From NCBI GenBank assembly GCA_039696685.1, contig CP155566.1, forward strand, positions 3,286,001-3,350,000: a DNA stretch of 64,000 nt, written 5' to 3'. A program made the position numbers and the translations under genes. Below are positions 1,517-62,432 of this stretch, in pieces (the first letter of the stretch is position 1; each line of letters starts with the position of its first letter). This DNA comes from Vibrio sp. CDRSL-10 TSBA. Its GTDB lineage: Bacteria > Pseudomonadota > Gammaproteobacteria > Enterobacterales > Vibrionaceae. The notes beneath the pieces are model-generated. The model ran no database searches. It had not been told where the DNA came from and saw nothing but the letters and a program-made list of their open reading frames with translations.

Positions 1517-2345
1517 ATGACTACTGAACGTAATGTATCCCCGTTTCGCATCGTCGCTTCCGATCTGGATGGCACGCTGCTGGCGCCGAAACCACCAGCT
1601 GAGCCCGTTTTCCAAGCAGACCCTGCAGCAGCTTCATCAGCAAGGCTACACGTTCATTTTTGCCACTGGTCGTCACCACATTGATGTCGCCGGAATCCGC
1701 GAGATCGCCGGTATCCCGGCCTATATGATTACTTCCAACGGTGCCCGGGTACACGACCAGGACAACCGTGAAATGTACAGCAAAAACGTACCGGAGCACC
1801 GGGTGCAGGCGATCATTGACCTGGTGAAAGATCAGCCGGGTCTGTATATTCATCTGTACCGCAACGATGAGTGGCTGCTGAGTCGTGAGAATGAACTGCT
1901 GCGTCAGTTTCACGAAGAATCGGGCTTTGCGTCGCAACAGTTTGATGCCGATAACGCTCCAACCGACGGCATCGCCAAAATCTTCTTCACCCATGAAGAG
2001 CGCGATCATGACCTGCTGACCCGCTTCGAAACGCTCATCAATCAGCAGTTTGGTGATGAGCTCAATGTGGCCTTTTCGACGCCGTGGTGCCTGGAAGTGA
2101 TGTCCGCTGGTGTCTCTAAAGGCCATGCACTGCAAGCCGTGGCTGAATCTCTGGGGCTGACGCTGGACCACTGTATCGCATTCGGCGACGGTATGAATGA
2201 TGCCGAGATGCTGTCCATGGCGGGTAAAGGTCTGGTCATGGGTACGGCGCACGAAAAAGTGTTCCGCGCCCTGCCTGACAATGAAGTGATTGGCAGCCAT
2301 GCCGATGATGCCGTGGCGCACTACCTGCAGCAGCACCTACTGTAA
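1517..2345 (+). CDS. yigL: Pyridoxal phosphate phosphatase, HAD family (frameshifted in this sequence)
   Basis: Cof-type HAD phosphatase of about 275 residues. The N-terminal DLDGTLL motif supplies the nucleophilic Asp. FATGRHH, TSNGARVHD and the C-terminal GDGMNDAEMLSMAGKG motif are close to E. coli YigL, and it follows pldB as there. The reading frame breaks at 1589-1591: upstream the frame reads DGTLLAPK, downstream LSPFSKQTL. Removing one A (GAAAC to GAAC) gives the continuous DGTLLAPNHQLSPFSKQTL expected of the family. A later ATG at 1533 opens the downstream frame but would lack the catalytic Asp, so the start is 1517, 7 nt after a GAGAG element. The lesion is probably a sequencing error. 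Confidence 0.87.
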
Positions 2346-2396
2346 CAAAGGCCGCTGAACCCAAGGCGGTATGACACGCGACCAGTTATTCCGCAT

Positions 2397-2422
2397 CAAC
2401 AGGCAGCCCGGGCTGCCTGTTG
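2397..2422. terminator. Perfect palindrome between convergent genes
   Basis: A 26-bp perfect inverted repeat (13+13, centre CCCGGG) between the convergent yigL and EVE genes. It would form a strong GC hairpin in either transcript, but the only T-rich tail is weak (CTTTAA on the plus strand). It most likely acts as a bidirectional terminator. Confidence 0.6.
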
Positions 2423-2448
2423 TGCTTTAACGGCGTCACTTAACGGGG

Positions 2449-2919
2449 CTATTCCTTTTTGCGCAAGGTCTCTTTGGTTAAAATCGCCTGCCATTCAGGC
2501 TCACTGACCGGCATCACCGATAAGCGGTTGCCACGCTTAACCAGCGCCAGTTCGCTCAGTTGCGGCAACGCCTTAAGCACTGCCAGCGGGATAAGGCGCT
2601 CTGTTTTACGCACAAACTCAATATCCACCATCACCCAGCGCGGGTTATCTGGTGAAGATTTGGGATCAAAACAGTCACTCTCCGGGTCAAATGCAAAATG
2701 ATCCGGATAAGCTTCACGCACCACTCTGGCTATTCCGGCGACGCCGACATTCTTGCACGATGAATGATAAATCAGCACCAAATCACCGATTTTAACCTCA
2801 TCACGCAACATATTCCGCGCCTGGTAGTTACGCACACCTTCCCAGCAGGAAACCTTTTGTGTCCGCAGAGTGTCAATAGAAAAGGTGTCTGGTTCTGTTT
2901 TGAATAGCCAGTATGCCAT
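2449..2919 (-). CDS. EVE domain protein (thymocyte nuclear protein 1 type)
   Basis: A single-domain protein of 156 residues. The opening MAYWLFKTEPDTFSID and the block WEGVRNYQARNMLRDEVKIGDLVLIYHS are the hallmark of the EVE family, a PUA-like fold. Family members are thought to bind modified bases in RNA or DNA, because EVE folds resemble YTH and SRA readers and are found fused to modification-dependent restriction domains. No nuclease domain is present here, so this is the small conserved housekeeping type. It is transcribed alone, divergently from the lipoprotein gene at 2961. Substrate not known. Confidence 0.85.
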   Translation of the reverse strand: MAYWLFKTEPDTFSIDTLRTQKVSCWEGVRNYQARNMLRDEVKIGDLVLIYHSSCKNVGVAGIARVVREAYPDHFAFDPESDCFDPKSSPDNPRWVMVDIEFVRKTERLIPLAVLKALPQLSELALVKRGNRLSVMPVSEPEWQAILTKETLRKKE

Positions 2920-2960
2920 AATGAAACCCGTTTAATGTTCTGTCACGAGGAAGATATAAC

Positions 2961-4491
2961 ATGAAGGCGCTGAGAATCCCAGCCGCAATCCTGACCGCCG
3001 CCCTGCTGCAAGCCTGTGCCGGCACACCTTCCGGGCAACCGGCTGACAAGCCGGCACCACAGGCCAGCGTGACCCGGCCCGACTCTATTCATCCGCAGCG
3101 TTTTGTGCTGCGCGGCCAGGTCGTACTGGGCCATCAGGTGCGCTCCTTCACCCCTTGTGGCAGCCAGCAACAACTGTGGCTTGATCTGCCCGAGGAGCGG
3201 AGTCAGCAGGCCATGGCGCTCAATCAGTCACCGTATCAGATCATGTATGGTGAAATGATTGGTTACCTGGCACCTCCCAGCCAGACCGGTTACAACGGCG
3301 ATTACACCGCACGCTTTGTGGTGCAGCAGATAAACCGCCTCAGTGCAGAGAACCCGGATCGCTGCGATTTGGTCACCACCCCGACCCGCGCCTTTGGCAC
3401 AGAACCTTTCTGGTCGATGAGTTTCAGCAATCAGGGGCTGACCTTCCAGCCTGTCGGCGGTGAAAAACAGACCTTTGCGATTGAAGAGCGTGAGATCAGC
3501 GAACAATCTCGTCACTACCAGTTTGACGGTGGTGAGCTCAGTCTGACCCGGGGTACCTGTTCAGATAATATGAGCGATACCCTGTATGGCTGGCAGGCCG
3601 AAACTGGAGCTGAACGGCGGCGAGTACCGTGGCTGCGCCACGCTCGGCAACCAGGATGCCACATTGGGCTGGACCGGCACCTACTTTGCCAGCGCAACGC
3701 ACAGTAACGGATTCAGTGTGACACTCAACCTCAATGGCGACCACAGTGCCACCACGCGCTACCACTACTCCGACGGCAGTGCCGATACGGTTGAAAGCGG
3801 CTACTGGCAGCAGTTGAACGACCAGCAGGTCCAGGTCGTGATGACCCGTCACCAGCAGCAGTATCTGTTGTCACAACGAATTTTCACCCGCGAGGGCAAC
3901 CGTCTCACCGCCACCCATGAACAAGTCGGCACTCTGGTTTATCCGATCAACGATGGCGGCCTGGTGCTGTACTCCGCGGATAACGCTTCACTGCAGTCCG
4001 ATAAGCACAGCACTGACCACACCACTCAGCTGGTATCCAGTGACCGCTTTGAAGAGGACGTTGATCAGGCCGTAAGACGCTACTTTGCCCTGCATGACAC
4101 CGCGACCGAAGGCAGTCACTATCGCTGGCTGAAATACGACTTAAACGGTGATGCCAAGCCCGAACTGCTGGTTCAGCTCGACTGGTGCGGCTCCGGCGGT
4201 TGTACCCTGCTGGTATTCCAGCACCAACAGCAGGAATGGCGTTTTAACAGCCGTATTACCCTGATTAATACCCCGTTCCAGGTCGCCGACAGCAGTTCTC
4301 ATGGCTGGCAGGATCTGTTGCTGCCGGTACGCGGTGGCGGCGCTAACGCCGCAGTGCACCGCCTGCAGTACAATGGCATCAGCTATCCGCTCAACCCGAG
4401 TTCCGCCAAGCCGGCCAGCAGCAAAGACAGCAGCAGTGTCACCCTGTTTGCTGACGGCTTGTCACCACATCAGTCCGGTGTGGCGTTGTGA
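2961..4491 (+). CDS. Composite COG3650-type lipoprotein (frameshifted in this sequence)
   Basis: About 509 residues once one frame is restored. The start has a lipoprotein signal (MKALRIPAAILTAALLQACAG; lipobox LQAC, Cys 19). A COG3650-like domain follows (FGTEPFWSMSF, TFQPVGGEK, about residues 140-250). Next comes a segment resembling NlpE/META-type beta barrels (GYWQQLNDQQVQV, about 230-310), and last a C-terminal domain with YDLNGDAKPELLVQLDWCG-like calcium-loop or VCBS-like sequence. The frame breaks at 3601-3603; removing one A (GAAAC to GAAC) joins LYGWQAE directly to LELNGGEYRGCA. Probably an outer-membrane lipoprotein of unknown function. The stop overlaps the tapT start by 4 nt (GTGA), so the two genes are translationally coupled. 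Confidence 0.7.
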
Positions 4492-5173: not shown

Positions 5174-7670
5174 CTATTTCAGCCGCTCAGGCGCCCCCAG
5201 ATAGAACCCCTGCAGAAAGTCAACGCCCATCTCTTCACTGATACGACACACGTCCTGGTTATGGACAAACTCGGCCACGGTTTTGGCATTCAGCACCTGG
5301 CACAGCTTAACCAGCTGCTGGGCGATACGACGCTGTTTCACATCCTGGTCGATGTTGCGGATCAGGCTGCCGTCGAGCTTAATCACCTGCGGCTCAAGCT
5401 TAACGATTTCATCAATATTGGAATAACCGGAACCGAAATCATCGACAATGATACTGGCGCCCAGGGCACGGAACTGATTGCAGACATCAATCATATGACC
5501 GTAATCGGTAATCTGTTCGGTTTCGAGCACTTCCAGCCCTACCCGCTGTGGATTGGGCAGTGATTTGATTGCCTCTTCGAGATGGATAAGGGTGCGTTCA
5601 CTCATAAAGTCCTGCGGTGACAGGTTAATCGAAAACCCTTCACTGCGCTGGCGCATCAGCTCGAAAGTGCGGCTGATCATCTGCCGGCTGAGACGGTTGT
5701 AGAGGTGAGTGCCCTCGATAATCGGTAAAAAGCGCCCCGGTACAATCACTTCACCTTCATCTTCAATCCGCACCAGACACTCATAGGAAGCCAGCTGGTG
5801 ACTGTGAGCATGGTAAAGTGGCTGCGCATACACCAGCACATTGTCATTCAACACTGCGCGGCTGACACAGGACAGCCAGCCCAGCCGCTCCTGGCGCACT
5901 TCATCCTGCGCCCGCAGGCGATTGGCATTACAGAAATGGCGATTGTGTTTGTGCGCATCGCGGCGAGCTTCTATCGCGCGCAGCAGCAGATCATCAGCGG
6001 TTTTGTCGGCAAAATCGCGCCGGCTGACCAGCCCACCGCACAGGGATACGGAAACATAATCCACTTCCGGCAGACCGAAAGGTTCGAAGTTGACATGCTC
6101 AAGCTGGTCAACAAACTTTGAAAAAGTCAGATGAATAAAGTCGGCATCGGCCGCACTGGCGAATATCGTGGCCCACTCGCCGACCCCGATCGCAAACAGC
6201 TCGCTGCGCCCTGGCAGATGCTGCTGCAAATAATGCTGAAAGTGACCGCTCAGATCCTGCAGCAGTTTGTCACCAACCCGGTAACCATACTTCTCGTTGA
6301 TCTGATTAAAGTTGGTCAGTTTGAGCACCAGCAGATGATCGCCGTCGCTCATACGCAGCAATTTCTCACGCAAGACCACCCGGTTTCGGCAAGCCGGTAC
6401 GCGGATCCATCCGGTAGCTGGCGGTCATCATGGTCGCCTGACTCTGGATTTTTTGCGATAAGTTGTGGTTAATCTCATCCAAATCGCTGAGCGAATTACG
6501 GATCAGACTGAACAGCGGCGCAACCACATCATGATGGCCGAAACTGAACGGTTCAGGCTCGGCCGCGGGCTTAGCCCCTTCCCGCAGCGCGATGTAAGTC
6601 AGACTGTGACTCATCGAACGCAGCAGTTCACCATCATGCCACAACTCACCCATGCAGTAACTGCCATGAGTGTCAGCCACCGCCTGCAGTGGTAACAACT
6701 CCTGATTATCCTCGATAAAGTCGAGCCGTGAGATACAGTTGTAAACCCAGATTTGCTGCGGCTGGAAACTGCGTAACTGCTGGGCGCCGAGATATACCTG
6801 CTCCAGCGTCATGGACGGGTGATCGAAACTAAACCGCACTTCATCCCCAACCGCAAGCGGCTTACTGAACACCAGTCCCGAGTCCTGTTCATAGAGCGGA
6901 ACGTACACATCCTGCTGCTCAAGATCGCCTTTAATCAACGGAAAATTGTGCAGCATTTCCAGAGGTACTGACTGACCATCACCAAGATAGCGGTTGTAGA
7001 TCTCCTGGATTGGCTGGTCGTTAAGACGATAGACGGTATTCCCCTGTGCTTCGGTGACGCGGAAATGACGCCCGATCGGGTTCCATTCGATGTAAGCCTG
7101 TGTGGTCAGCTCCAGCTGCGAACTGTGCAGCGCCACTGCCACCATACTGTCCTGATAAGTCTGCGTATCGAGTAACACCCAACGCCCGCGTTCGGTTTCA
7201 CTGGCCGCACCACCAGCGACAGTGAGGCCCGGCGCCAGATGATTAAATGCGCGTACCCGCTCAGAGCGCTGCCCGAGTTCCAGGTAAGCGCCGAAACAGA
7301 GAATGGCGCGCGTATCCGCTGCAAGCGCGATGCGCTCCAGCAGTAGTTGCGTATCGCCGGAGGGATTATCGGAATAACGTGTCAGGGCGCAGCTGAGGCG
7401 GGTGGAATGGAAATCGGTGAACAGAAGCAAGGTGCCCTGGTGATGAATGTCACCCTGTTCGATCACCTGGCCACTGCTGAAGCCAATCACGGTGGCGTGA
7501 GGAAACTTCTGCTTGAGCTGCTGCGCCAGGCGCTCAACCTGGGCCGGGCTCTCGCAGGAAAACAGCTGGATAAGTAATGAACCTTGCGCCGAAAATGAAA
7601 AATCAGTCAGTATCTGATCCGGAGACTGATCTAAGGGGATAAAAAGCGAAGCGGTTAACATATCATCCAA
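5174..7670 (-). CDS. FIST-GGDEF-EAL signalling protein (frameshifted in this sequence)
   Basis: About 831 residues after correction. Residues about 30-375 form FIST N and C sensor domains ([26 protein letters not shown], and the C-terminal [17 protein letters not shown]). A degenerate GGDEF domain follows: the active motif reads GVGEW, so cyclase activity is unlikely. The EAL domain keeps most catalytic residues: YECLVR in place of [36 protein letters not shown] and QGFYLG. It is therefore probably a cyclic-di-GMP phosphodiesterase controlled by a FIST small-molecule sensor. The frame breaks at 6384-6386; removing one base (GTTTC to GTTC on plus) gives [16 protein letters not shown], the usual entry into a GGDEF domain. 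The organisation matches a V. cholerae homologue next to yigB/xerC. Confidence 0.85.
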
Positions 7671-8492: not shown

Positions 8493-9423
8493 TTACTCCT
8501 TGGATTTTTTGTGGGCGCGCGGGTGGGCCTGATCGTATACCTGAGCCAGATGTTGAAAGTCGAGGTGGGTATAGATCTGGGTGGTGGAAATATTTTCGTG
8601 GCCGAGCAACTCCTGCACGGCGCGCAGATTATTACTCGATTCGAGCATATGAGTGGCAAACGAGTGGCGCAGTTTATGCGGACTGATATGACTGGCAACC
8701 GATTGTTTTTGTCCCCACTCCGCCATCCTTTTTTGCACACTGCGATGGGAAATCCGCACGCCGAGTTTGGAGATAAACAGGGCCGGTTTCCGGGCCTTTG
8801 AGCAGCGCACTGCGTACTTTAAGCCACTTGCCAACCCACTCTTTTGCCTGACCGGAAAACGGCGCTTTGCGCTCTTTGTTACCTTTACCAAGCACACGGA
8901 TTTCACCGCTGCGCAGGCTGATGTCACGCACATCAATCGCCACCAGCTCCGCCAGACGCAAGCCAGCGCCGTACATCAGCTCCATCATGGCCCGATCGCG
9001 GATGGACAGCGGGTCATCTTCGTCGACCTCAAGCAACTGCGCCATTTCATCCACATCAAGATTTTTCGGCAACGGACGCTGCTTACGCGGTGCCGATACG
9101 CCTTTGGCCGGATTGGCACTCAGCTCGCCACGCAGGATGAGAAAATCGAAAAAACTGCGCAAAGACGAGAGCCGCGTCGCCAGACTGTTGGCTTTCATGC
9201 CATCACGCATGCCTTTACTGGCCAGCTGGCGTACCCAGCCGGCATCGACCTGCTGCCAGTGACTGACACCAAGCTGGCACAAATGCTCAGCCATGGCACC
9301 CAGTTGCTGTTTGTAATTGCGCTGCGTGTGCAGACTGAGGCCTTTTTCACTGCGCAAATATTCGTAAAATCGTTCCAGCGGCCTGTTCAGACTATCAGGC
9401 AGTGGGGTGACTGATTCGCTCAT
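8493..9423 (-). CDS. xerC: Tyrosine recombinase XerC (frameshifted in this sequence)
   Basis: Site-specific recombinase of about 309 residues that, with XerD, resolves chromosome dimers at dif. An N-terminal SAM-like core-binding domain is followed by the catalytic domain with GAGLRLAEL (Arg), GKGNKERK (Lys), [10 protein letters not shown] (His-x-x-Arg), [14 protein letters not shown] (His and the nucleophilic Tyr). The frame breaks at 8787-8789; dropping one base (GTTTC to GTTC on plus) turns [10 protein letters not shown] into [15 protein letters not shown], restoring the family sequence. Both halves carry essential catalytic residues, so neither fragment could work alone. It overlaps the DUF484 gene by 29 nt. 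Confidence 0.9.
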
Positions 9424-10953: not shown

Positions 10954-12208
10954 TTACTCCGGCAGAAGACTCTCAAGTGCCCACAGACTAGACAGCTCTT
11001 CACGCTGGCGCACTAAATGGGTTTTATCACCATCCACCATCACTTCAGCCGCACGCGTACGGGTGTTGTAGTTAGACGACATCACAAAACCATACGCACC
11101 GGCAGAAACGTACTGCCAGCAGATCACCCTGCTCGAGGACCAGCGCACGATCTTTACCCAGGAAGTCACCGGTTTCGCACACAGGACCCACCAGGTCATA
11201 AGTCAGCGCAGAGCCTTCACGCGGTGCAACCGGCACGATATCCTGCCACGCCTGGTACAGCGCCGGACGCATCAGATCGTTCATGGCCGCATCGATGATA
11301 GCGAAGTTTTTGTGCTCAGTATGCTTGAGGAATTCCACGCGGGTCAGCAGCACACCGGCGTTGGCCGCAATCGCCCGGCCCGGTTCAAAAATCAGTTCCA
11401 GATCCTGATGATTTTGCAGACGTGCCAGCAGAGCTTTAGCGTATTCCGATGGCTGAGGTGGCAGTTCGTTACGGTACACGACGCCAAGACCACCGCCGAC
11501 ATCCAGGTGTTTAATATGGATACCTTCCGCTTTCAGGCTGTCGATCAGCGCCAGCAGGCGATCCGTCGCATCAATAAACGGGTCGATTTCAGTCAGCTGT
11601 GAACCGATATGGCAGTCAATGCCGTGCACACTGATGTTATCCATACCCTGAGCAAGACGGTACACGTCCGCAGCGCGATCAAAAGTGATACCAAATTTGT
11701 TATCACGCAGACCGGTAGAGATGTAAGGGTGAGTTTTGGCATCCACGTCCGGGTTAATACGCAGTGACACCGGCGCTTTTACGCCCAGTTCAGCGGCAAC
11801 CGCGTTCAGACGAACCAGTTCCGGCTCCGACTCAACGTTAAAGCACTTAATGTTAAGCTCCAGCGCACGCTTCATTTCTGCCGCGGTTTTACCCACGCCG
11901 GAAAAAACCACTTTAGCCGGATCGCCACCTGCTGCAACCACGCGTTCCAGTTCACCGCCGGATACGATATCAAAGCCTGAACCAAGACGAGCCAGAGTGT
12001 TGAGCACCCCAAGGTTCGAGTTGGCTTTCACTGCGTAGCAGACCAGATGCGGATGATCGCCGACCGACTTGTCAAAGGCGTGCCAGTGACGCTCCAGAGT
12101 CGCGCGAGAATACACATACAGAGGTGTACCGTAGTTCTCAGCCAATTGAGACAGTGAAACGTTTTCCGCCCAAAGTTGGCCATCATCCTGATAATTGAAG
12201 TAATCCAA
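10954..12208 (-). CDS. lysA: Diaminopimelate decarboxylase (frameshifted in this sequence)
   Basis: PLP-dependent enzyme of about 417 residues that makes L-lysine from meso-diaminopimelate. [12 protein letters not shown] holds the PLP lysine; [31 protein letters not shown] and [14 protein letters not shown] are the fold III motifs. The frame breaks at 11106-11108; taking out one A (GAAAC to GAAC on plus) joins EQGDLLAVR to [16 protein letters not shown] and the normal C-terminus ending in LLPE. The downstream frame supplies active-site residues of the dimer partner, so truncation would inactivate it. Transcribed from upstream of lptM. Confidence 0.92.
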
Positions 12209-12430: not shown

Positions 12431-12746
12431 ATGAACGAGACTGAATTTCATCAACTGGTGGACAGCCAGATGCAAATCATTGAAGAAGCCATTGATGATT
12501 CCGGCGCGGACATCGACTACGAGACCAGTGGCAACGTGATGACACTGGAATTTGAAGACCGCAGCCAAATCATCATCAACCGTCAGGAAACCGATGAAAG
12601 AAATCTGGCTGGCCTCAAAATCCGGCGGTTTTCATTTTCAGTGGCACGATGAACAGTGGATCTGCTCCAAAACCGGCACTGAATTTTTCACCATGGTCAA
12701 ACAAGAGTGTGAAAAACACGCCGGCGAAAGTATCGACTGGGAATAA
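12431..12746 (+). CDS. cyaY: Frataxin homologue CyaY (frameshifted in this sequence)
   Basis: About 104 residues after correction. CyaY is the bacterial frataxin, an acidic iron-binding regulator of Fe-S cluster assembly. The start [14 protein letters not shown] and the acidic helix [14 protein letters not shown] are seen, then [20 protein letters not shown]. The frame breaks at 12588-12590. Removing one A (GAAAC to GAAC) gives [20 protein letters not shown], the most conserved frataxin sheet. Convergent with cyaA, with which it shares a bidirectional terminator. Confidence 0.9.
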
Positions 12747-15684: not shown

Positions 15685-16624
15685 ATGACCTCTACCACCC
15701 CAATCCGAATCGCGACGCGCCAGAGTCCACTCGCCCTGTGGCAAGCCCATTACGTCAAAGATGCACTGCAGGCGGCCCACCCCGGTCTGGAAGTGGAACT
15801 GGTCACCATGGTGACCCGCGGCGACATTATTCTGGATACCCCACTGGCCAAAGTCGGGGGGAAAGGGTTGTTCGTTAAAGAGCTGGAAGTGGCCATGCTG
15901 GAAGGACGTGCCGATCTCGCCGTGCACTCAATGAAAGATGTTCCGGTCGACTTCCCCGAAGGCCTCGGCCTGGTCACCATTTGTGAACGTGAAGACCCGC
16001 GTGATGCCTTCGTGTCAAACCAATACACGTCACTTGATGAGCTGCCACAAGGCGCTGTGGTCGGTACCTGCAGCCTGCGCCGCCAGTGTCAGCTCAAAGA
16101 AGCGCGGCCGGATCTGGTGATCAAAGAGCTGCGCGGCAATGTCGGCACCCGCCTTGGCAAACTCGATGCCGGTGAATATGACGCGATTATTCTCGCCGCA
16201 GCCGGTCTGAAACGTCTCAAACTGGAACAGCGTATCCGCAGCCTGATTGAGCCGGAACAATCCCTGCCGGCAGTCGGCCAGGGCGCGGTCGGTATCGAAT
16301 GTCGTCTCGACGATGAACGCCTGCGTAACCTGCTGGCACCACTCAGTCACGCCGACACAACTGACCGTGTATTGTGTGAGCGCGCCATGAACCTGACCCT
16401 GGAAGGCGGCTGTCAGGTGCCAATCGGCAGCTATGCTCTGCTTGACGGCGATAACCTGTGGCTGCGTGCCCTGGTCGGTGAACCGGATGGCTCACTGATT
16501 GTGCGCGGTGAAATCCGCGGTCCGCGTCAGGATGCAGAAACGCCTCGGGGTCGAGCTCGCCAACCAGCTGCTTGACGACGGCGCGCGCGATATTCTGACC
16601 AAGCTGTACGCCGAGCACGAGTAA
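15685..16624 (+). CDS. hemC: Porphobilinogen deaminase (frameshifted in this sequence)
   Basis: Hydroxymethylbilane synthase of about 312 residues, third step of heme synthesis. N-terminal [23 protein letters not shown], the arginine-rich [11 protein letters not shown], and the dipyrromethane-binding Cys in [10 protein letters not shown] (about residue 243) are all present. The frame breaks at 16538-16540; removing one A (GAAAC to GAAC) turns QDAETPRG into [19 protein letters not shown] and the protein then runs to the TAA at 16622, 4 nt before hemD. First gene of hemCDXY. Confidence 0.93.
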
Positions 16625-18578: not shown

Positions 18579-19760
18579 TGGTCAGATTACTGTTTCTGTT
18601 CATTGTACTCGGCGCCGGCCTGTTTGCCGGCACCCAGTATGCCGGTCAGCAGGGTTACGTGCTGATTTCAGTGGCTGAACACACGATCGAAATGAGCGTC
18701 ACCACCCTGGTTATCTTTGTGATTGCCGCTCTGGCCGGTCTGTTTGCTCTGGAGTATGTGGTCAAGAAGCTGATTTACGCCAGCTCATCGACCTGGAACT
18801 GGTTCAGTGTGCGCAAGATGAAGCGCTCCCGTCGTTATACCAACGAAGCCATCATCAAGCTGCTGGAAGGCGACTGGAAACAGGCCGAGAAAAAGGTCAC
18901 CCGCTGGGCCAACCATCATGACATGCCTCTGCTGTGCTACCTGGTGGCCTCCGAGGCCGCAAACGGCATGGGTGATCGCAGCAAACGTGACCACTATCTG
19001 GAGCTGGCCGCTCAACAGGACAATGCCACTCTGGCGGTCGAGCTGACCCGCGCCAAGCAACAGATCAGTGACGGTGAATTGCAGGCGGCACAAAGCACGC
19101 TGAGTGCGCTGCAAAAACAATATCCGGATAATACAGTGCTGCTCAACCTGCTCAAGCAGACCTATCTGCAGCGTAAGGAGTGGCAAGCGCTGCTTGATCT
19201 GCTGCCGAAACTGGTCAAGACCAAACATGTCAACCAGCAGGAAGCTGATGCGCTGACCACCACCGCTCAGCAGGGATTACTGGAAAGCATTGCCAGCCAG
19301 CAAGGCAGCGAAGGGCTGATCAGCCACTGGAACGGACTCAGCCGCAAACAGCAGGCAGAGCCGCAACTGGTGCTGGCGTTTATTCAGCAGCTGATTAAGC
19401 GCAAAGCAGACCATGAAGCCTTCACCCTGATTAAGGAAAACCTGCATAAGCACCGCTCAGCGGAGCTGTACAGCCTGCTGGCAGAAACTCAACCTCGCGG
19501 ACCGCCATCCGGCGATTATTCTGCTGCAAGAAGCCTTGCAGCGTGACGGTAACAATGCCGAAGCGCACAGCGCACTTGGCCAGCTCTATCTGCGTGAGCA
19601 ACAGTGGCAACTGGCGCAGCAGCATCTGGAAACGGCGCTGTCACAACGCTCAAGTATTTCCGATTACGCTTATCTGGCCGATGCCCTGGAAAAACAGCAT
19701 CTGACCAAGGCGGCGCATGAAGTGACCCGCAAAGCGCTGACGCTGCTTGAATCGGCCTGA
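18578..19760 (+). CDS. hemY: HemY, TPR membrane protein (frameshifted in this sequence)
   Basis: About 393 residues after correction: two N-terminal transmembrane helices (LLFLFIVLGAGLFAG and TTLVIFVIAALAGLFALEYVV) then a cytoplasmic TPR-like domain with LKQTYLQRKEWQALLDLLPKL. The frame breaks at 19485-19487; removing one A (GAAAC to GAAC) converts LLAETQPRG into LLAELNLADRHPAIILLQEAL and joins the C-terminal TPR units. Co-transcribed with hemX. This is the enterobacterial-type HemY of unknown role, not the protoporphyrinogen oxidase of Gram-positives. Confidence 0.88.
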
Positions 19761-21905: not shown

Positions 21906-22476
21906 TTAGTCTTTGTAATCATCCAGATCGAGATTTTCGAACTGCGACAGCAGATCGTCGTCCGTTTTGGCCTTCGCTTTAGTCTTGGCTTTCGCGGCAG
22001 GCTCAACAGGCTGTTCTTCTTCCAGCTCTTCGCTGTCATCAAACAGACCGAGCTGCTTCATCAGGATTTCAATCCGATCCAGCTTCTCGTCCACGTATTT
22101 CTGCAGACCGGCACCCAGCTTCTCGCCGTTGTCGATACGGTCCAGCAATACGTTCAGTTGCGCATCGTTTTCCAGCATCGCCAGTTTCCTGCTCGGCAGA
22201 GGCGCGACGCTCCTGCTTGTTCAGTTTCTTCGGCGCTTCGGCAATCAGCGGAATTTTTTTCTTGCTGCCCAGACGCGGATCGTTCTGCTGCGCCGCTTTA
22301 CGCTGCGCTGCCTGCGAACCTTCTGAATGGCGGCTGCCGGTTTTCAGGCCTTTACGCTTTTTGAGCTTTTTACGCAGACGACCTTCCAGTTCACCAGAGG
22401 TACGGTTATGTTTACGAGCAAAAACCAGATCGCCATTGATACCGGTTTTGCTGATTGATTCTTTTTGTCGAGTCAT
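21906..22476 (-). CDS. yihI: Der GTPase-activating protein YihI (frameshifted in this sequence)
   Basis: About 189 residues after correction. YihI stimulates GTP hydrolysis by the ribosome-assembly GTPase Der. The very basic N-terminus (KKLKKRKGLKTGSR, DPRLGSKKKIPL) and the acidic C-terminal helices (LLDRIDNGEKLGAGLQKYVDEK, LDRIEILMKQLGL) fit the family. The frame breaks at 22185-22187; dropping one base (GTTTC to GTTC on plus) gives SAEQELAMLENDAQLNVLL. A Lys/Ala/Asp tail follows. The ATG overlaps the methyltransferase stop by one base (TAATG on minus). Confidence 0.88.
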
Positions 22477-44059: not shown

Positions 44060-45755
44060 TTATTGCTCCTGCGCTTGATGAAATTCCGCCAGCTGCTCCA
44101 GATGCTGACCTAACTGACGATACCCCTGATAACGACGGGCGCGCAGCGCCTGCAACTCAGGGTTTGGCTGATACACAGCACTGATTGGGCTCGCCATGAC
44201 CTGCTGTGCCTGCTGCGCGTCGGCGTATACCCCGGCCGCTACCGCGGCAAATATCGCCGCACCCAGCGCGCAGCACTGCTCTGAACGCACCACGGCAATC
44301 TCACGTCCGATCACATCGGCACACATCTGCATCACATAGGGTGATTTTTGCGAGATACCGCCAATGGCAATCACCCGCTCCACGTCCACACCCTGATCAA
44401 CAAAACAATCCACGATGGCTTTGGCACCGTGCGCGGTGGATTCAACCAGCGCAGCAAACAAAGCCGGCACTTCCGAGCCGAGATTAAGGTCAGCCAGCGC
44501 ACCTTTGAGGCGCTGGTTGGCATAAGGAGTGCGGCGACCGTTGTGCCAGTCCATTGCCAGTGGAGAATGCGGATTAAACTGATACTGCGCCGCCGCATCA
44601 GACAGCATAGGGATCAGCGCTTTTTCCAGCTCATCCAGGGTTTGCTGCGCATCGGGGTGCTGAGCCGCGAAGCTCTGCAGTGGCCACAACAGGACCCGCT
44701 TCAGCCAGGCATAAATGTCTCCAAAGGCCGACTGACCGGCCTCAAGTGCCATCAGCGCGGGCAGCGCACTGCCTTTGACCTGACCGCAGATGCCGTGAAT
44801 CGTGCGATCGCCGACATCTCCGGCATCGACCATTAAAATGTCGCAGGTTGAGGTACCAATCACCTTGACCAAATCATTCGCGCCCGCGCCGGCGCCAACC
44901 GCGCCCATGTGACAGTCAAACTCACCGACGGCCACTGCAATCCCGGCCGGCAGGCCCAGCATTTGCGCCCATTGCGTACTCAGTTGCCCGGCCTGCTGCT
45001 CAGCGGTGTAGACCTGACTGAACATGCGGGCACGCATACCATCCAGCGTGGGCGAAATCGCCGACAAAAATGCCTGATCAGGCAGACCGCCCCAGCTGTC
45101 GTGCCACATCGCCTTGTGTCCGGCAGCACAAATACCGCGCCGCAGCGTATCCGGATGCTGGTTACCGCTCAGCAAGGCAGGAATCCAGTCACACAGTTCA
45201 ACCCAGCTGTGCGCGCGCGCTGCAACCGCCGCATCCTGCTCACTGACCCAGGCCGCTTTGGCCCAGAAACCATTCCGAGGAGTAGATGCCGCCGATGTAT
45301 TTGGTGTAATCGGTAAAATCACCGCTGTGTGCCAGCTGGTTGATCCGCTCCGCCTTGGCCACCGAAGTGTGGTCTTTCCACAAAATAAACATCGCATGCG
45401 GGTTATGCTCAAACTCCGGCAGCAGTGCCAGCACATTGCCATCCGCATCAATCGGCGCCGGCGTGGAACCTGTGGTGTCGACGCCGATACCAACGACCGC
45501 CTGAACCACAGCAGCCGGCTGTCCGGTTAAGGCGTCCTTAACTGCCGCCGTCATCGCTTCAATGTAATCTCGCGGGTGATGGCGAAACTGAGACTGTTCC
45601 GGCTGGTTATACAGGCCCTGCATCCAGCGCGGATAATAAGTGACACCGGAGGCCACCTCTTCGCCACTGGTCGCATTAACCAGTAAGGCACGTACCGAGT
45701 CCGAACCGAAATCAAGACCGATGACATACGCAGGCTGAGTAGCAAAATGCTCCAT
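44060..45755 (-). CDS. araB: Ribulokinase (frameshifted in this sequence)
   Basis: FGGY kinase of about 564 residues that phosphorylates L-ribulose. N-terminal [39 protein letters not shown], then [20 protein letters not shown] and a C-terminal [20 protein letters not shown]. The frame breaks at 45267-45269; removing one A on plus (GAAAC to GAAC) gives [20 protein letters not shown]. First gene of araBDA, with GGAG 6 nt before the ATG and an AraC-dependent promoter upstream. Confidence 0.94.
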
Positions 45756-46034: not shown

Positions 46035-46050
46035 TGTGATTTTGGTCACT
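46035..46050 (+). promoter_or_regulatory. CRP site of the araFGH promoter
   Basis: TGTGATTTTGGTCACT: both half-sites of the CRP consensus TGTGA-N6-TCACA with one mismatch. A -10-like TATGGA at 46075-46080 places CRP near -44, close to the class II position. The AraC pair lies 12 bp upstream. Confidence 0.82.
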
Positions 46051-46116
46051 TCAACCTGGCGCGGAATCTTCAACTATGGATAGCGAAACAAACCCCTACC
46101 AGCGGATGGAATAACA

Positions 46117-47116
46117 ATGAAACTAAAAACCCTACTCTCTACCGCAGTCCTCAGTGGATTGACCTTGTTAAGTGCTTCTGCCAATGCGTTCTTCGGTTCG
46201 GATGATGAATTGCGGCTTGGTTATCTGGTTAAACAGCCGGAAGAAACCTTGGTTCCAGACTGAATGGTCGTTCGCCGAACAAGCGGGCAAAGATCTCGGT
46301 TTTGAAGTGGTCAAAATGGCGGTGCCGGATGGTGAGAAAACCCTTAACGCCATCGATACCCTGGCCGCACAAGGCGCGAAAGGCTTTGTAATTTGCACGC
46401 CGGATCCAAAATTGGGGCCGGCCATCATGGCTAAAGCGAAAAGCTATGACCTTAAAGTGGTCACAGTCGACGACCAGTTTCTTAACGCGAAAGGCCAGCC
46501 GATGACCGACGTGCCGCTGGTGATGATGGCGGCGACCGCCATCGGTGAACGCCAGGGTCAGGAGCTGTATAACGAAATGACCAAACGTGGCTGGGATGCC
46601 GCCACGACTGGTGTAATGGCCATTACTGCCGATGAACTCGATACCGCGCGCCGTCGCGTGGATGGCTCGATTTCCGCACTGAAAGCGGCTGGTTTCCCGG
46701 CCGGACAAATCTACCGCGTACCAACCAAAACCAATGACATTCCTGGTGCACTGGATGCGGCCAACTCACTGCTGGTGCAATACCCGAACGTGAAACAGTG
46801 GCTGGTGGTCGGCATGAACGACAACACAGTCCTGGGTGGCATTCGCGCCACTGAAGGTCAGGGCTTTGGCGCTGACAACGTGATCGGCATCGGTATCAAC
46901 GGTGTGGATGCCGTCAACGAACTGGCTAAATCTCAGCCAACCGGCTTCTATGGCTCTCTGCTGCCAAGCCCGGACGTACACGGCTATCAAAGTATTGAAT
47001 CGCTGTACAAGTGGGTCAAAGACGGTGTTGAACCGAATAAATTCGTCGAAGTCACCGATGTGGTACTGATCACGCGCGATAACTTCCGTGACGAACTGGC
47101 GAAGAAAGGCCTGTAA
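46117..47116 (+). CDS. araF: L-arabinose periplasmic binding protein (frameshifted in this sequence)
   Basis: About 332 residues after correction; Sec signal peptide [19 protein letters not shown] ending near SANA, then the mature protein starting [62 protein letters not shown] and the C-terminal [13 protein letters not shown] match E. coli AraF. The frame breaks at 46244-46246, only about 42 codons in; removing one A (GAAAC to GAAC) restores PEEPWFQTEW. Without this correction the signal peptide would be lost from the main frame. Confidence 0.94.
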
Positions 47117-47192: not shown

Positions 47193-48708
47193 ATGGCGAA
47201 GTCCCCCTCTTATCTCGAATTTCGTAACATTTCCAAGCATTTCCCCGGAGTTAAGGCTCTGAGTAATATCAGCTTCCGCGCCAATGCCGGCAGCGTGCAT
47301 GCTCTGATGGGTGAAAACGGTGCCGGAAAATCGACGTTACTGAAAACCTTGAGCGGGTTCCATAAACCAACCGACGGTCACCTGGCGATCGACGGCAAGG
47401 AGCACCTGTTTGACTCCACCAATGATGCGCTGGAACAAGGCATCGCAATTATTTATCAGGAACTCAACCTGGTGCCGGAACTGAGTGTGGCGGAAAACAT
47501 CTACCTCGGTCAGCTGCCGACCAAAAACGGCCGGGTGGATAACGACACTCTCAACCGCAACGCGCGGGTGCAACTGGAACGTCTGGGTGAAACCTTTGAC
47601 CCGTCGCGGCCGCTGAAAGAGTTTTCGATTGGTCAGTGGCAGATGGTTGAGATTGCCAAAGCGCTGAGTCGCAACGCGCAAATCATCGCCTTTGACGAGC
47701 CGACCAGCAGCCTGTCACAACGGGAAATTAAAAACCTGTTTAAGGTGATTCGCGAACTGCGTGATGACGGCAAAATCATTTTATATGTCTCGCACCGCAT
47801 GGAAGAGATCTTTGATCTGTGCGATGCGATCACCATTTTTAAAGACGGCACTCACGTGCAGACCTTTGATGATCTCAGCGAAACTGAGCCACGATCGCCT
47901 GGTTGAGCTGATGGTCGGACGGGAAATCAACGACATTTATAACTACCGCGGACGCCAGCATGGCCAGAGCGGATTGCGCATCGAAAACTTCCAGGGGCCG
48001 GGGCTAAGCGCGCCGGTCTCGCTCGACATCAAACAGGGGGAAATCCTCGGTCTGTTTGGTCTGGTCGGTGCCGGCCGTACCGAACTGACCCGGCTGATTT
48101 TCGGCGCTGAACGCGCAACAGGCGGCGATCTCTACCTGCATGATGTCAAAATCGGTATCAAAACCCCGCAGGATGCGATTCGTGCCGGTATCACCCTGTG
48201 CTCGGAAGACCGAAAAGCTGACGGCATCGTACCCATCATGTCAGTGCAGGAAAACACAAACATCAGTGCCCGCCCCTGGTACCTGAAATTCAACAGCCTG
48301 ATCGACTTTGAATGGGAAAAGCGCAACGCCCAGACCCAGAAAGAGGCACTCAATGTCAAAGCCTCTTCCCTGGAACAACCGATCGGCAAGCTGTCGGGTG
48401 GCAACCAGCAAAAAGTGATTCTCGGCCGCTGGTTATCGACGGCAATGAGCGTGATCCTGCTCGATGAACCGACCCGTGGTATCGATGTCGGCGCCAAATC
48501 GGAAATTTATGAACTGATTTTTAAGCTGGCTGAAAACGGCGTGACCGTGCTGGTCGTTTCCAGCGACTTACCGGAAGTACTTGGTATTTCTGACCGCCTG
48601 CTGGTGATGAAAGATGGTGCCGTGAGCGGTGAACTGCAGCGGGACGAGTTTAATGAACAAGCGGCCCTGCGTCTGGCGATGCTGGGCAATGAAGCTGTCG
48701 CAGCTTAA
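47193..48708 (+). CDS. araG: L-arabinose ABC transporter ATPase (frameshifted in this sequence)
   Basis: About 504 residues, two fused ABC ATPase domains. Domain 1 (about 8-240): Walker [11 protein letters not shown]-loop YQELNLVPE, signature [14 protein letters not shown], Walker [13 protein letters not shown]. Domain 2 (about 255-500): [10 protein letters not shown] in place of a full Walker A, signature [15 protein letters not shown], Walker [15 protein letters not shown]. The frame breaks at 47881-47883; removing one A (GAAAC to GAAC) gives [21 protein letters not shown], joining the domains. Follows araF, precedes araH by 17 nt. Confidence 0.94.
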
Positions 48709-51132: not shown

Positions 51133-52639
51133 ATGTCTTTAGCACACCAATCACCAACGCTGCTCAGTGCGCGCGGGATATGCAAATATTTTCCCGGAGT
51201 GAAAGCACTGGATAAGGTTGATTTCACCCTGCAGCGAGGCGAAATCATGGCGTTACTGGGTGAGAAACGGCGCCGGTAAATCGACCCTGGTGAAAACTCT
51301 GACCGGGGTTTATCAGCGCGACGGCGGCACAGTGGAACTCGACGGCGAGACCATCACGCCGCACAACACGGCTCACGCCCAGCAACTGGGGATCGGCACC
51401 GTGTATCAGGAGGTCAACCTGCTACCTAATATGACGGTGATGGACAACCTGTTTATCGGCAATGAACCACGTAAATGGGGCCTGGTCGATCGCCGCACTA
51501 TGGCCAGAGAAGCCCACGATATCGTTCGCAGTTACGGACTCGATATTGATGTCAGCCAGCCGCTCAATCATTTTTCGGTCGCGATACAGCAGGTCATTGC
51601 CATCGCACGCGCCATTTCGCTGTCAGCCAAGATACTCATCCTCGATGAGCCGACCGCCAGCCTCGACAGCAACGAAGTCGCCATGCTGTTTACCATCATG
51701 CGCCAGCTGAAACAACGTGGTATCAGCCTAGTGTTTATTACCCATTTTCTCGATCAGGTGTATGAAATCAGCGACCGTATTACCGTGCTGCGTAACGGTC
51801 AGCTTATCGGCACCCGTGACACCGCTCAGCTGCCCCAGCTGGAGCTGGTGAAAATGATGCTGGGGCGCGAGCTCGACCAGAGTGCTCTGCAACGGGCCGG
51901 TAAAACCCGCCTCAGTGATGAACCTGTGGTGGAATTTCATCAGTTTGGCAAACAGGGCTGTATCGCCCCGTTTGACCTCAAAGTACATGCCGGTGAAATC
52001 GTCGGCCTGGCCGGCTTACTCGGTTCAGGCCGCACTGAAACCGCGCAGGTCATTTTTGGAATCGAGCGCAGCGACAGCGGCGAATGTCGCCTGAAAGGAC
52101 AGCCGGTTGCCATCCGCTCAGCCCGTCACGCCGCGCAACTCGGTTTCGGCTACTGTCCGGAGGATCGCAAAACCGATGGCATCATAGGTGCCGCCTCCGT
52201 GCGTGAAAACATCATTCTCGCCCTGCAGGCGCAGCGTGGCTGGTTCAAGCCGGTGCCGCGTAAGGAGCAGGACGCTATCGCACAACGTTTTGTGCGCCAG
52301 CTTGAGATTAAAACGCCGGATATTGAACAACCGATTGAGTTTCTCTCCGGCGGCAACCAGCAAAAAGTGCTGCTGGCACGCTGGCTGCTGACCAAACCCA
52401 AATTTCTCATTCTGGATGAGCCGACCCGCGGCATCGATGTCGGTGCCCACGCCGAAATCATCCATCTGATTGAAAGTCTGTGTGCCAACGGCCTCGCCCT
52501 GCTGGTGATCTCCTCTGAGCTGGAAGAGCTGGTCGGTTACGCCGATCGGGTACTAGTGCTGAAAGACCGGCGTCAGGTGGCGGAAATCACCACTGGGGAT
52601 CTCTCTGTACCGGCCATCATGCAAGCTATCGCGATGTAA
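51133..52639 (+). CDS. ytfR: Furanose ABC transporter ATPase YtfR (frameshifted in this sequence)
   Basis: About 501 residues from the ATG at 51133 (GGGAG 7 nt upstream). Two ABC domains: domain 1 has [18 protein letters not shown] only after correction, [15 protein letters not shown] and [11 protein letters not shown]; domain 2 has [27 protein letters not shown] and [17 protein letters not shown]. The frame breaks at 51265-51267, inside the Walker A motif; removing one A (GAAAC to GAAC) restores GENGAGKS. As read, translation would stop at TAA a few codons later. Confidence 0.92.
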
Positions 52640-57118: not shown

Positions 57119-57545
57119 ATGAGCTATCAACACATTTTAGTTGCTATCGATCTTTCAGAAGACAGCAAACACCTGATCGACAAAGCGGTTGCACTGGCTA
57201 CGCCTCTCAATGCTGAGATCTCTTTTGTTCATATCGACGTCAATTACGCCGAACTGTACACCGGCCTTATCGATATCAATCTGGCGGAAACCCAGCATCA
57301 CTCGATGGAAACCTCACAAAAGCAGTTACAGGAAACTGGCTCAGTACGCTAATTTCCCGATCAAACACACCCTGGTCGGCAGCGGTGACCTCAACAACGA
57401 ACTGTGCGATACCATCAAAGAGTTCCAGATTGACCTGGTTGTCTGCGGCCATCATCAGGATTTCTGGAGCAAACTGCTCTCCTCGACCCGTCAGCTTATT
57501 AATTGCTCACCTGTCGACCTGCTGGTAGTGCCACTCAAAGACTGA
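57119..57545 (+). CDS. uspA: Universal stress protein A family (frameshifted in this sequence)
   Basis: About 141 residues. N-terminal [24 protein letters not shown] and C-terminal [35 protein letters not shown] match UspA. In place of the ATP-binding G-x-x-G-x-x-x-x-x-x-x-x-x-G-S motif it has [16 protein letters not shown], so like E. coli UspA it probably does not bind ATP. The frame breaks at 57333-57335; removing one A (GAAAC to GAAC) gives [30 protein letters not shown] Shine-Dalgarno precedes the start. Confidence 0.92.
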
Positions 57546-57602
57546 CGCTGATTTAAAACTCAGTTACACTGCAGGCACTTTTTCGATTGAAACGTTTTAA
57601 TC

Positions 57603-58488
57603 ATGATTTATTTGTCTGCAGTGACCCTTCTTTGGGCCTTTTCGTTCAGCCTGATCGGTGTTTACCTCGCTGGTCAGGTAGACGCTTGGTTTTCGGTCTG
57701 GATCCGGATTGCACTGGCCAGTGTCGTCTTTCTACCTTTCCTCAAATTTAAGCAGGTGCCGGGCAAACTGGCGCTGAAACTGATGGCAGCCGGTGGTTTT
57801 CAGCTCGGCCTGATGTACTGTTTCTACTACCCGTCGTTCGAGCTGCTCTCGGTACCGGAAGTGCTGCTGTTTACCGTTTTCACGCCGATTTATGTCACCC
57901 TGATTTATGATTTGCTCAAAGGGCGCTTTTCACCCTGGTATCTGGTGACGGCTGCGATTGCTGTGGCCGGTGCGGCAGTAATTAAATTTGCCGGTGTGAA
58001 TGAAAACTTTTTCCTCGGCTTTATGGTGGTTCAGGGCTCTAACATCTGTTTTGCCATCGGCCAGGTGCTGTACAAATATGTGATGGAAAAAGAACAGGTT
58101 GAGCTGCCACAACGCACCATTTTTGGTTACTTCTACCTTGGCGCGTTTCGTGGTCGCCAGTGTGGCCTTCCTGCTGCTCGGTAACCCGGAGCGACTGCCG
58201 ACCACCCATCTGCAGTGGGGCATTCTGCTTTACCTGGGTGTGATTGCTTCCGGTTTCGGTTATTTTGCCTGGAACCGCGGCGCCTGCCTGGTTAATGCCG
58301 GCGCGCTGGCAATTATGAATAACGCCCTGGTGCCAGCCGGTCTGCTGGTCAATATTCTGATCTGGAACCGGGATGTCGATTTGCCGCGCCTGTTGATTGG
58401 CGGCGCCATCATCCTGCTGTCGCTGTGGGTCAATGAAACCTGGGTCAAACGCCGTGCCGAACTCAGCTACCAGCGCGCCAGCCGTTAA
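57603..58488 (+). CDS. EamA/DMT family permease (frameshifted in this sequence)
   Basis: About 294 residues with two EamA repeats and ten hydrophobic segments (VTLLWAFSFSLIGVYLAGQ, VPEVLLFTVFTPIYVTLIYD, GILLYLGVIASGFGYFAWNRGA). It resembles the carboxylate/amino acid transporter type of DMT exporters. The frame breaks at 58146-58148; removing one T (GTTTC to GTTC) gives FYLGAFVVASVAFLLLGN, a continuous membrane helix. Substrate unknown. Confidence 0.83.
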
Positions 58489-60676: not shown

Positions 60677-60762
60677 AACAGCCAAACTCACCACATATAC
60701 TGGCAGGATGTACGCCAGGCACGACTTACCCGTCGTCATTCCTCTTATCAGCCAGAATGCAA

Positions 60763-60786
60763 AAAGCCCGGAGCAATGCCCGGGCT
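60763..60786. terminator. Terminator between asnC and tsrA
   Basis: AAGCCCGG-AGCAATGC-CCGGGCTT hairpin; A run on the left serves the minus-strand gene, weaker T content on the right. Confidence 0.7.
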
Positions 60787-60830
60787 TATCATTTCAGCTC
60801 TATTGCGGACCAGCAAAGTCCCGAGAGCGA

Positions 60831-61112
60831 TTACTTATTCAGGTAGCTGAGCAACTCGTCGGCGGAGATGCCCTGTTTAGCCAGCTCTTTTGCCAGCAGA
60901 TCAACCTGTTCATGCTTGCGCGAATCGATCACTTGCTGAAACTGGTAAACCAGATCACGCAGTACCGGCAGCGGAACTTGTTTCGCTGCGCTGCGAATGC
61001 GCTCGCTACTTTGATTGCCCAACTCCGCAAGCAATTTACCAAACATGACTTTTTCTGGTGAATCATCAAGCTGTTCCCAGATGCGAGCCATTTCGTAGGT
61101 CGTCATAGACAT
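60831..61112 (-). CDS. tsrA: TsrA-like H-NS-related regulator
   Basis: 93 residues from the ATG at 61112 (MSMTTYEMARIWEQL). Mostly helical, with a C-terminal segment DLLAKELAKQGISADELLSYL resembling the oligomerisation part of H-NS but no H-NS DNA-binding motif. Size, sequence character and position near asnC and the usp-ftnA genes fit TsrA of V. cholerae, a global repressor with distant H-NS similarity that controls type VI secretion and virulence genes. The identity rests partly on remembered synteny. Confidence 0.62.
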   Translation of the reverse strand: MSMTTYEMARIWEQLDDSPEKVMFGKLLAELGNQSSERIRSAAKQVPLPVLRDLVYQFQQVIDSRKHEQVDLLAKELAKQGISADELLSYLNK

Positions 61113-61231
61113 CGTATAGAGATTCCAAAGAGTTATTCTAAAGAACGAAAGAAAACACAATATACACGCGTTGTGTCGTTTAGAAAATAGCCCTTAGGGT
61201 GAATTTACCCAAGCTTACACTGCAACTCAGG

Positions 61232-62432
61232 CTAAGAGTCCAGGGCCCACCGATGCCAGGCGCGCCCGACTTTCGAAAACAGAACCAACAACGCCGGCGC
61301 GATCAGCCACATATGTAAACCAATCAGCATCTGCGGTTGCAAGTCTAACCGCTGCAACAGACCGACCACCAGACCCGAACCACTCATTTGGAACAGACCT
61401 AACAAAGCGGCCGCTGTACCGGCCTTATCACCAAACGGCGCCAGTGCTTTACCGGCAGCCGCACCCAGCACCCAGGCAAAACCCATTGAAGAGATAAAAA
61501 TTGGCAGCATGAACGCGAATGGAGTCGCCACCTGAGCCAGCAGCAACATGGTCACCCCGGCCACCAGCAGAGCCACAATACCCATCACCAGCGTAGTATG
61601 GGTGCCAAAGCGGTCCATAATGCGCGGCGCCGTCAGACAAGCGGCAATATTGATCACCGCGTTGATACCAAACCAGAAGGTAAACTGGTTCATGTCCAGC
61701 CCCAGGTTGGTCATCAGCACCACGGGAGCCGAGGTGACATAGGCCAGAATGACCGCCATCGCTAACAGACACAAGCTGGCATGAAACAGGAAAGACGGTG
61801 TTTTAACCACTGACCAGTAGCGGCTGAGTTTAAACACTGCCTGCTTGTCTGTGGTCGGGTTGGTTTCACGCATAGTGACCAGCATCAGCAGTCCGACCAC
61901 AATCGCAAACGCGGCCATAAAGCTGAAATTGCTACGCCAGCCAAACTGCTGGGTCAGCCAGCTGCCGAGAATCGGCGCCAGAGCAGGAATAAAGCAGATC
62001 GCCCCGTTGAGGTAGCTGATCATTTTACCGCTGCGATGCGGGCCAAAAATATCGCGAACTGTTGCAAAGGCTGCTACCGATGTTGCACATGCACCTAAGC
62101 CTTGTAGCAGACGGGCCGTCAGCATCCACTCGATGTTTTGAGCACTCCACGCCAATAAAGCGCTCAACGCGTAGATACCTATCCCTCCTAATGCAACAGT
62201 TTCGACGACCGAGCTTGTCCGCTAACGGTCCGGCAAACAACTGGCCGATACCCATAGCAAACAGAAACCAGGTGATCGTATCCTGGGCCAGAGCGTGTTC
62301 CACGTGAAACGTCTGCGAAATCTGCGGTAAGGCGGGCAGATAAATATCAATGGCCAAAGGGCTGAAAAGAACCAGCAGGGTCAGCAGCACCATTTGTAGT
62401 TTGCCGGGACCAGCAGATTGCGTCACGCTCAC
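61232..62432 (-). CDS. Bcr/CflA-type drug-resistance MFS exporter (frameshifted in this sequence)
   Basis: About 399 residues, 12 membrane helices. LLVLFSPLAIDIYLPALPQI in helix 1 and GPLADKLGRRTVALGG (MFS motif A) plus LLQGLGACATSVAAFATVRD are signatures of the Bcr/CflA/EmrD group of drug/H+ antiporters. The frame breaks at 62200-62202; dropping one base (GTTTC to GTTC on plus) turns LGRRNCCIRRD into LGRRTVALGGIGIYALSALLAW. Divergent from a LysR gene 109 bp away, which may regulate it. Confidence 0.88.

Follow-up and report, generated by a model that had tools for sequence, protein, structure and literature searches.

Recurrent one-base frame breaks at GAAC/GTTC in a Vibrio genome assembly: probable scars of phosphorothioate DNA modification

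We analyzed a 64-kb stretch of the Vibrio sp. CDRSL-10 TSBA assembly (hereafter the window; C2:3286001-3350000 of a two-contig 4.90 Mb genome, completeness 95.9, contamination 4.55) in which 23 genes are each interrupted by one surplus base at GAAC, written as GAAAC, or at GTTC, written as GTTTC (together, the pentamer). It is highly probable that the 23 breaks are scars of native-DNA sequencing, in which a phosphorothioate at GAAC/GTTC, the predicted product of the Dnd system of the same genome, was misread. The sequencing platform was probably nanopore. The breaks fall at the word predicted to be sulfur-marked by the genome's own system, and are therefore likely to be sequencing misreads. 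The original prediction described the lesion without naming its cause. To it we add the dnd locus, the flank preference of the broken sites, a second affected genome and a spacing rule.

Frame breaks in the window

Open reading frames (ORFs) of the nearest relatives that we found, G046 and G056 (both 84% over a segment of polA), were aligned to the window by frameshift-aware protein-to-DNA alignment, with a frame change allowed at any base. As judged by the window's CyaA-like protein, the closest named relative is Vibrio furnissii CIP 102972 (best segment 93% identity). Each of the 23 genes had been predicted to carry one +1 lesion at GAAAC or GTTTC, and a +1 break was recovered at 23/23 places in the alignments of both relatives. 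As the ORFs of the first alignment were picked by length, two of these places (8786 and 12587) were visible in it only via frames antisense to the gene. The alignment was therefore redone with ORFs on the coding strand as called by a hidden Markov model (HMM), which again gave +1 at all 23 places, with G046 and G056 alike. At 51264, the G046 match is just 42% identical and that of G056 84%. The remaining events of the first alignment lie upstream of likely starts (21266, 21295 and 38445) or in an antisense ORF (31304).

Read on the + strand, 14 of the 23 sites are GAAAC and nine GTTTC. Since a random 24-nt coding stretch contains the pentamer at a frequency of only 0.056, the agreement at 23 places is not due to chance. 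The window holds 380 intact GAAC/GTTC and 185 GAAAC/GTTTC, so that about 23 of 403 motif places are broken. The same places are unbroken in G046 and G056, which bears out the earlier view of a motif-specific systematic sequence error in a genome that is truly intact. We also used a motif-blind HMM gene model, trained on 319 unbroken aligned genes, which needs no relative when calling; a pentamer-only coding-potential caller gave many false calls and was abandoned in its favor. Within the window, the HMM called 22 "+1" events (19 at the pentamer, 3 elsewhere) and two "-1" events, and missed four of the 23 sites. The breaks are listed below by window position and strand; the gene names are the putative labels of the earlier reader, and each break was seen in both alignments unless stated otherwise.

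1588..1592, + strand: yigL, +1 break at GAAAC
3600..3604, + strand: lipoprotein gene, +1 break at GAAAC
6383..6387, - strand: FIST-EAL gene, +1 break, GTTTC on the + strand
8786..8790, - strand: xerC, +1 break, GTTTC on the + strand (coding-strand recheck; 309-aa orthologues, 89-90% identity)
11105..11109, + strand: lysA, +1 break at GAAAC
12587..12591, + strand: cyaY, +1 break at GAAAC (coding-strand recheck; 104-aa orthologues, 89-90% identity)
16537..16541, + strand: hemC, +1 break at GAAAC
19484..19488, + strand: hemY, +1 break at GAAAC
22184..22188, - strand: yihI, +1 break, GTTTC on the + strand
24178..24182, - strand: cytochrome c4 gene, +1 break, GTTTC on the + strand
27611..27615, - strand: polA, +1 break, GTTTC on the + strand
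31767..31771, + strand: tatD, +1 break at GAAAC
34016..34020, + strand: ubiB, +1 break at GAAAC
36362..36366, + strand: ubiE, +1 break at GAAAC
39395..39399, - strand: HDOD gene, +1 break, GTTTC on the + strand
42452..42456, - strand: araA, +1 break, GTTTC on the + strand
45266..45270, + strand: araB, +1 break at GAAAC
46243..46247, + strand: araF, +1 break at GAAAC
47880..47884, + strand: araG, +1 break at GAAAC
51264..51268, + strand: ytfR-like gene, +1 break at GAAAC (both alignments; close orthologue in G056 only)
57332..57336, + strand: uspA, +1 break at GAAAC
58145..58149, - strand: EamA gene, +1 break, GTTTC on the + strand
62199..62203, - strand: MFS gene, +1 break, GTTTC on the + strand

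A nucleotide alignment of the window to a V. furnissii locus (L007) was dropped, as the two have diverged outside genes and many spurious indels resulted. Spot 42 RNA (25799-25915, - strand) is the sole hit in the window to reach an Rfam gathering score.

The lesion beyond the window

The alignment was extended to a 734-kb stretch (C2:2646001-3380000), for which 780 G046 ORFs gave 571 alignments at a 65% identity filter, with 567 passing (559,660 nt). Some of these reference ORFs, picked by length, may be antisense, which in principle leaves the count of frame changes untouched; the coding-strand recheck covers the 23 sites of the window. A total of 276 frame events resulted. Of these, 246 were pentamer +1 breaks, and 232 of the 567 aligned ORFs were broken. 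With 48 events close to ORF ends set aside, 228 internal events remain: 220 pentamer +1 breaks, seven events away from the pentamer and a single "-1" in the vicinity of one. The earlier statement that no other kind of frameshift was found stands for the aligned genes of the window, and over the longer stretch there are rare exceptions. The 246 events collapse to 245 distinct places, four of which have a second pentamer in reach. This set includes 21 of the window's 23 sites; 8786 is missing because it was represented by a 56% antisense ORF, below the identity cut, and 51264 because it has no close G046 match. On the + strand, the 245 scars read GAAAC at 146 places and GTTTC at 99, compared to 2061 vs 1937 for unhit places, a weak skew (p 0.013).

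The motif-blind HMM called 217 "+1" events in this genome. A pentamer lay no more than 30 nt away from 200 of these, against a background of 14.7%; the 22 "-1" events that it also called all lay away from pentamers. Three further HMM settings placed 214/252, 207/237 and 199/235 "+1" events at the pentamer, and over 100 kb of contig C1 the figure was 20/20. Single-base indels are frequent in the A/T runs of long-read consensus sequences, and this is what speaks for a fault of basecaller or assembler at short A/T runs, independent of DNA modification. We regard such a fault as very unlikely. Longer homopolymers are spared, as had been claimed for the window: the aligned coding sequence contains 849 AAAAA starts, yet only 17 of the 217 HMM "+1" events lie away from the pentamer. 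Furthermore, the lesion requires a preceding G and a following C, depends on flanks on both sides, is spaced, and is absent in G046.

The shared pentamer is also the one point in favor of programmed frameshifting at GAAAC, to which we attach a negligible probability: many genes are hit, in either orientation (128 of 245 places read GAAAC on the strand of the aligned ORF), and the orthologues of relatives are unbroken at these places. One gene, which we take to be infB, is broken three times. Its protein matches the Vibrio relatives with an E-value of 0, except for G079 (1.6e-76), and among the matches listed every relative spans residues 1-901, G057 with an internal stop. As a scar marker in 227 Vibrio genomes, the infB-like protein flagged its own genome and G079 (a weak match) and missed G140, a second affected genome described below; a single gene is therefore too small a probe.

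Controls and a second affected genome

The same aligner found no pentamer events and 19 others in 80 named Vibrio loci, taken irrespective of dnd status (634 alignments, 682,255 nt; at least one alignment in all 80 loci and at least five in 65). V. furnissii G056 gave no pentamer event and one other over 66,902 aligned nt. Applied to 869 kb of G046, the HMM placed 7 of 40 "+1" events near the pentamer, which is the background level, at the setting that gave 207/237 in the affected genome. Most non-pentamer frame events among the named loci came from L086 (Vibrio breoganii FF50; ten in 24 alignments). In L180, from a dndC-positive genome in about 160 contigs (G038), several -1 events off the pentamer were seen, possibly reflecting assembly quality.

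A search of 196 Vibrio genomes returned a DndC match in 56, with dndC above the cut-off in 29; G046 and G056 are without any match. G140 was singled out by a dndC gene lying in several pieces. Over 820 kb of this genome (217 alignments, 237,454 nt), 47 internal events were found, comprising 41 +1 events at the pentamer, two "-1" events near it and four elsewhere. With events at ORF ends included there are 45 scar places, and 2.8% of motif sites are broken. The motif-blind HMM placed 105 of 138 "+1" events of G140 at the pentamer. Among 394 genomes of the order, 22 were dndC-positive and none had dndC in more than one frame.

The Dnd locus

The affected genome encodes dndB, dndC, dndD (in two frames) and dndE together with dptF, dptG and dptH at C2:1196009-1211314. 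DndC, a 560-aa open frame, scores 550.3 bits against TIGR03183 (cut-off 290.4) and shows 67.7% identity over 92% to the dndC of E. coli B7A. DndB (TIGR03233, 481.1 vs a cut-off of 328) and DndE (TIGR03184, 87 vs 71.85) also pass, as do DptF (475.7 vs 50), DptG (312.2 vs 20) and DptH (1284.5 vs 620.65 bits), restriction partners that often accompany Dnd. The DptH frame spans positions 1-1418 of the 1678-position PADLOC model and is followed by an overlapping 271-aa frame, one frame off, which is probably the end of DptH. DndD is in two pieces, one of which passes the TIGR03185 cut-off of 245.85 (246.7 bits) while the other alone falls below it (234.7). In Salmonella Cerro 87 and E. coli B7A, the Dnd systems place phosphorothioate at GAAC/GTTC (GpsAAC/GpsTTC; PMC9069010). 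The dnd island also contains a DGQHR-domain protein (C2:1205035-1206186) that passes the general DGQHR cut-off and falls below that of phosphorothioation-associated DGQHR family 1. A plasmid search gave two weak matches of no use.

The break between the two dndD pieces lies at a pentamer, and dndC of G140 is itself broken at a pentamer. Since genes of the predicted marking system carry the lesion in both genomes, real mutation makes little sense. That the deposited reading frames are broken is what a decaying or hypermutable genome with real frameshifts has to offer; we consider this extremely improbable. Of the 567 aligned ORFs, 232 are hit, polA included; the lesion is confined to a single motif; dndD, which is required for the mark, is hit as well; and there is little sign of decay otherwise, with just 7 of the 228 internal events off the pentamer.

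Flank preference of the broken sites

We compared the flanks of the 245 hit motif places with those of 3,998 unhit places in coding sequence, and found the strongest differences at positions -3 to +2. T at -1 is nearly absent from hit places (2.0% vs 38.7%, p 1.5e-45) and A is enriched there (52.7% vs 19.4%), A at +1 is depleted (9.0% vs 31.9%, p 6e-14), and G at +2 is more frequent (52.7% vs 39.2%). TGAAC is broken at 5 of 1,552 occurrences and AGAACG at 50 of 200, and the flanks alone predict the broken sites with a cross-validated area under the receiver operating characteristic curve of 0.867. In the 45 scar places of G140, T at -1 occurs 0 times and A at +1 twice. Dnd-marked sites are reported to favor A/C at -1, T/G at +1, C at -2 and G at +2, with GTAC as a minor motif (PMC9521924). 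The broken sites thus carry the flank preference published for Dnd. As read from the frames, a GTAC context would suit two of the seven internal events off the pentamer, and a double excess at GTTC a third; these are too few to serve as evidence. Only some occurrences of the motif are hit, tied to local context: 245 of 4,243 places, or 5.8%, are broken. In wild-type Salmonella Cerro 87, nanopore error is reported to flag 4.4% of GAAC and 3.9% of GTTC (PMC9069010).

Spacing of the scars

The smallest gap between the 245 aligned places is 684 nt, with a mean of 2,918 nt. As a null model, the hit labels were redistributed among all motif places in 2,000 rounds, weighted by the flank model. Gaps below 684 nt are expected 58.5 times (lowest relabelling 37) and were observed in 0 of 244 cases. 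In successive 200-nt bins up to 1,200 nt, 0, 0, 0, 5, 10 and 18 pairs were observed vs 22.0, 19.0, 18.6, 18.6, 20.1 and 19.8 expected, a gradual recovery through ratios of 0, 0, 0, 0.27, 0.50 and 0.91; past 1,200 nt, observed and expected pairs match within about 25%. Pairs closer than 650 nt in different ORFs are also missing (0 vs 13.5 expected). Artificial pairs of insertions 60-500 nt apart were both recovered in 60 of 60 aligner tests, and the aligner is therefore not hiding close pairs. In the G140 aligned set the smallest gap is 1312 nt, with none below 684 nt vs 5.0 expected (P 0.004). The two closest scar pairs of the window, 45266-46247 (977 nt) and 57332-58149 (813 nt), are just over the 684-nt minimum.

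These data suggest a spacing law of Dnd target choice, by which each mark would exert lateral inhibition on new marks over about 0.65-1 kb of its own molecule; we hold the balance on this proposal to be even. By optical mapping, marks lie mostly 1.5-10 kb apart at positions that differ between molecules (PMC8053081). Several observations count against a strict form of the law. The same paper describes some plasmid marks inferred to sit in tight clusters, at odds with an exclusion zone that holds everywhere. With sites called by the HMM only, gaps of 345 and 574 nt appear in the affected genome (three of four settings), as do gaps of 9-46 nt that we take to be one event assigned to two pentamers, and the looser HMM set of G140 has three gaps below 684 nt vs 9.4 expected. 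Thus, the exclusion may be a strong depletion and not an absolute limit.

The scars could also be phosphorothioate misreads whose minimum spacing comes from the consensus software and not from the enzyme. Polishers do operate in windows, and we give this version a minor but appreciable share of the probability. Fixed windows, however, would permit close pairs across their borders, and the aligned sites show none below 684 nt. The recovery with distance is gradual, the effect is alike within and between genes, and it is repeated in the aligned sites of G140.

Flanks and spacing also bear on a DNA methyltransferase with a GAAC-like target as the source, in place of Dnd, of a basecalling error. 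Methylation-linked errors in nanopore assemblies are known and hit only some occurrences of a motif (PMC12392509), and a flank preference by itself could be a k-mer effect of the basecaller. Nevertheless, a methylase usually marks nearly all of its sites (PMC12707154), and would therefore produce no exclusion over 0.7 kb. Our methylase search, limited to PF01555, PF02384 and PF07669, found no match to PF01555 in the genome; PF02384 (21.6 bits) and PF07669 (25.9 bits) were barely over their cut-offs in one 316-aa frame, and a second PF07669 match (23.8 bits) was below the cut-off. Both affected genomes are dndC-positive, whereas dndC exceeds its cut-off in just 29 of the 196 Vibrio genomes searched. 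Taken together, we judge a methyltransferase to be improbable.

Origin of the scars

In the phosphorothioate reading, which we prefer, DndBCDE would replace an oxygen of the backbone by sulfur at the G-A or G-T step of GAAC/GTTC, as the dnd genes predict. At a site that carries the mark on most molecules, an extra A or T would be inserted in basecalling and retained in the consensus. The genes of the cell would then likely be intact, and the scar map would correspond to the most heavily marked sites. Suppression by one mark of others within about 0.65-1 kb of the same molecule would be the simplest account of the spacing: with mutually exclusive marks, two neighboring sites cannot both be marked on most molecules, and the limit would look sharp in a majority consensus. 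We infer unpolished native long reads, the presence of sulfur, the addition of the base by the basecaller, and a spacing that stems from Dnd rather than from software.

Nanopore errors at GAAC/GTTC phosphorothioate sites are reported in PMC9069010. Set against this reading, the main text of that paper names no insertion error ("insertion" appears once, for cloning, and "indel" never). In E. coli B7A, all sites are described as only partly marked, 50% being exceeded at none of the eight sites assayed, and the 360 strongest sites as lacking a flank consensus (PMC6459556). Such occupancy is below what a majority consensus error should need; our strain may be more heavily marked than B7A, or nanopore reads may fail at lower occupancy. 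Also unfavorable is that 18 of 19 other dndC-positive Vibrio genomes are scar-free in the one 14-20 kb region inspected in each, the remaining one being G140 with one pentamer event in its region, and that four E. coli dnd loci bear no frameshift note on dnd genes, such notes being found on IS3 transposases only. Short-read polishing would explain scar-free dnd genomes.

Significance and comparison with known systems

For gene content the breaks are likely an artefact, and their interest lies in a map of DNA modification. Hundreds of genes here, and dozens in G140, read as broken though likely intact, and errors can therefore enter the gene content, completeness estimates and pseudogene counts of strains with dnd genes. 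The scars would also chart heavily marked Dnd sites at base resolution and at no extra cost. The choice of Dnd sites has been termed a mystery by the EcoWI-seq authors (PMC9521924). If true, the spacing law together with a two-base flank code would explain why a small share of GAAC/GTTC is strongly marked, and unpolished public assemblies of dnd-bearing bacteria would then serve as ready-made modification maps at base resolution. Both rules can be checked in existing site maps and nanopore runs. In searches of open-licence full texts, which yielded work on nanopore detection of phosphorothioate and on methylation-linked assembly errors, we saw neither a minimum spacing of Dnd marks nor a report of phosphorothioate scars in assemblies.

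The system resembles the GpsAAC/GpsTTC Dnd systems of Salmonella Cerro 87 and E. coli B7A in having dndBCDE with adjacent dptFGH, in the small share of GAAC/GTTC affected, and in flanks of A/C at -1, T/G at +1 and G at +2 (PMC9521924). It differs in that the aligned scars are at least 684 nt apart and that sulfur is here predicted from genes. As in the methylation-linked nanopore assembly errors of PMC12392509, consensus errors occur at some occurrences of a modified motif. In the text of that study these amount to 42 differences (6.5%) across all strains, whereas we propose a backbone modification whose scars cover nearly all frame breaks and lie about 3 kb apart on average. The closest parallel in detection is the ELIGOS analysis of nanopore reads (PMC9069010), in which error likewise falls at GAAC/GTTC in native DNA of dnd strains at a similar share of sites. 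There, read-level errors were scored against amplified DNA, whereas here a one-base excess is fixed in a public consensus and breaks hundreds of genes.

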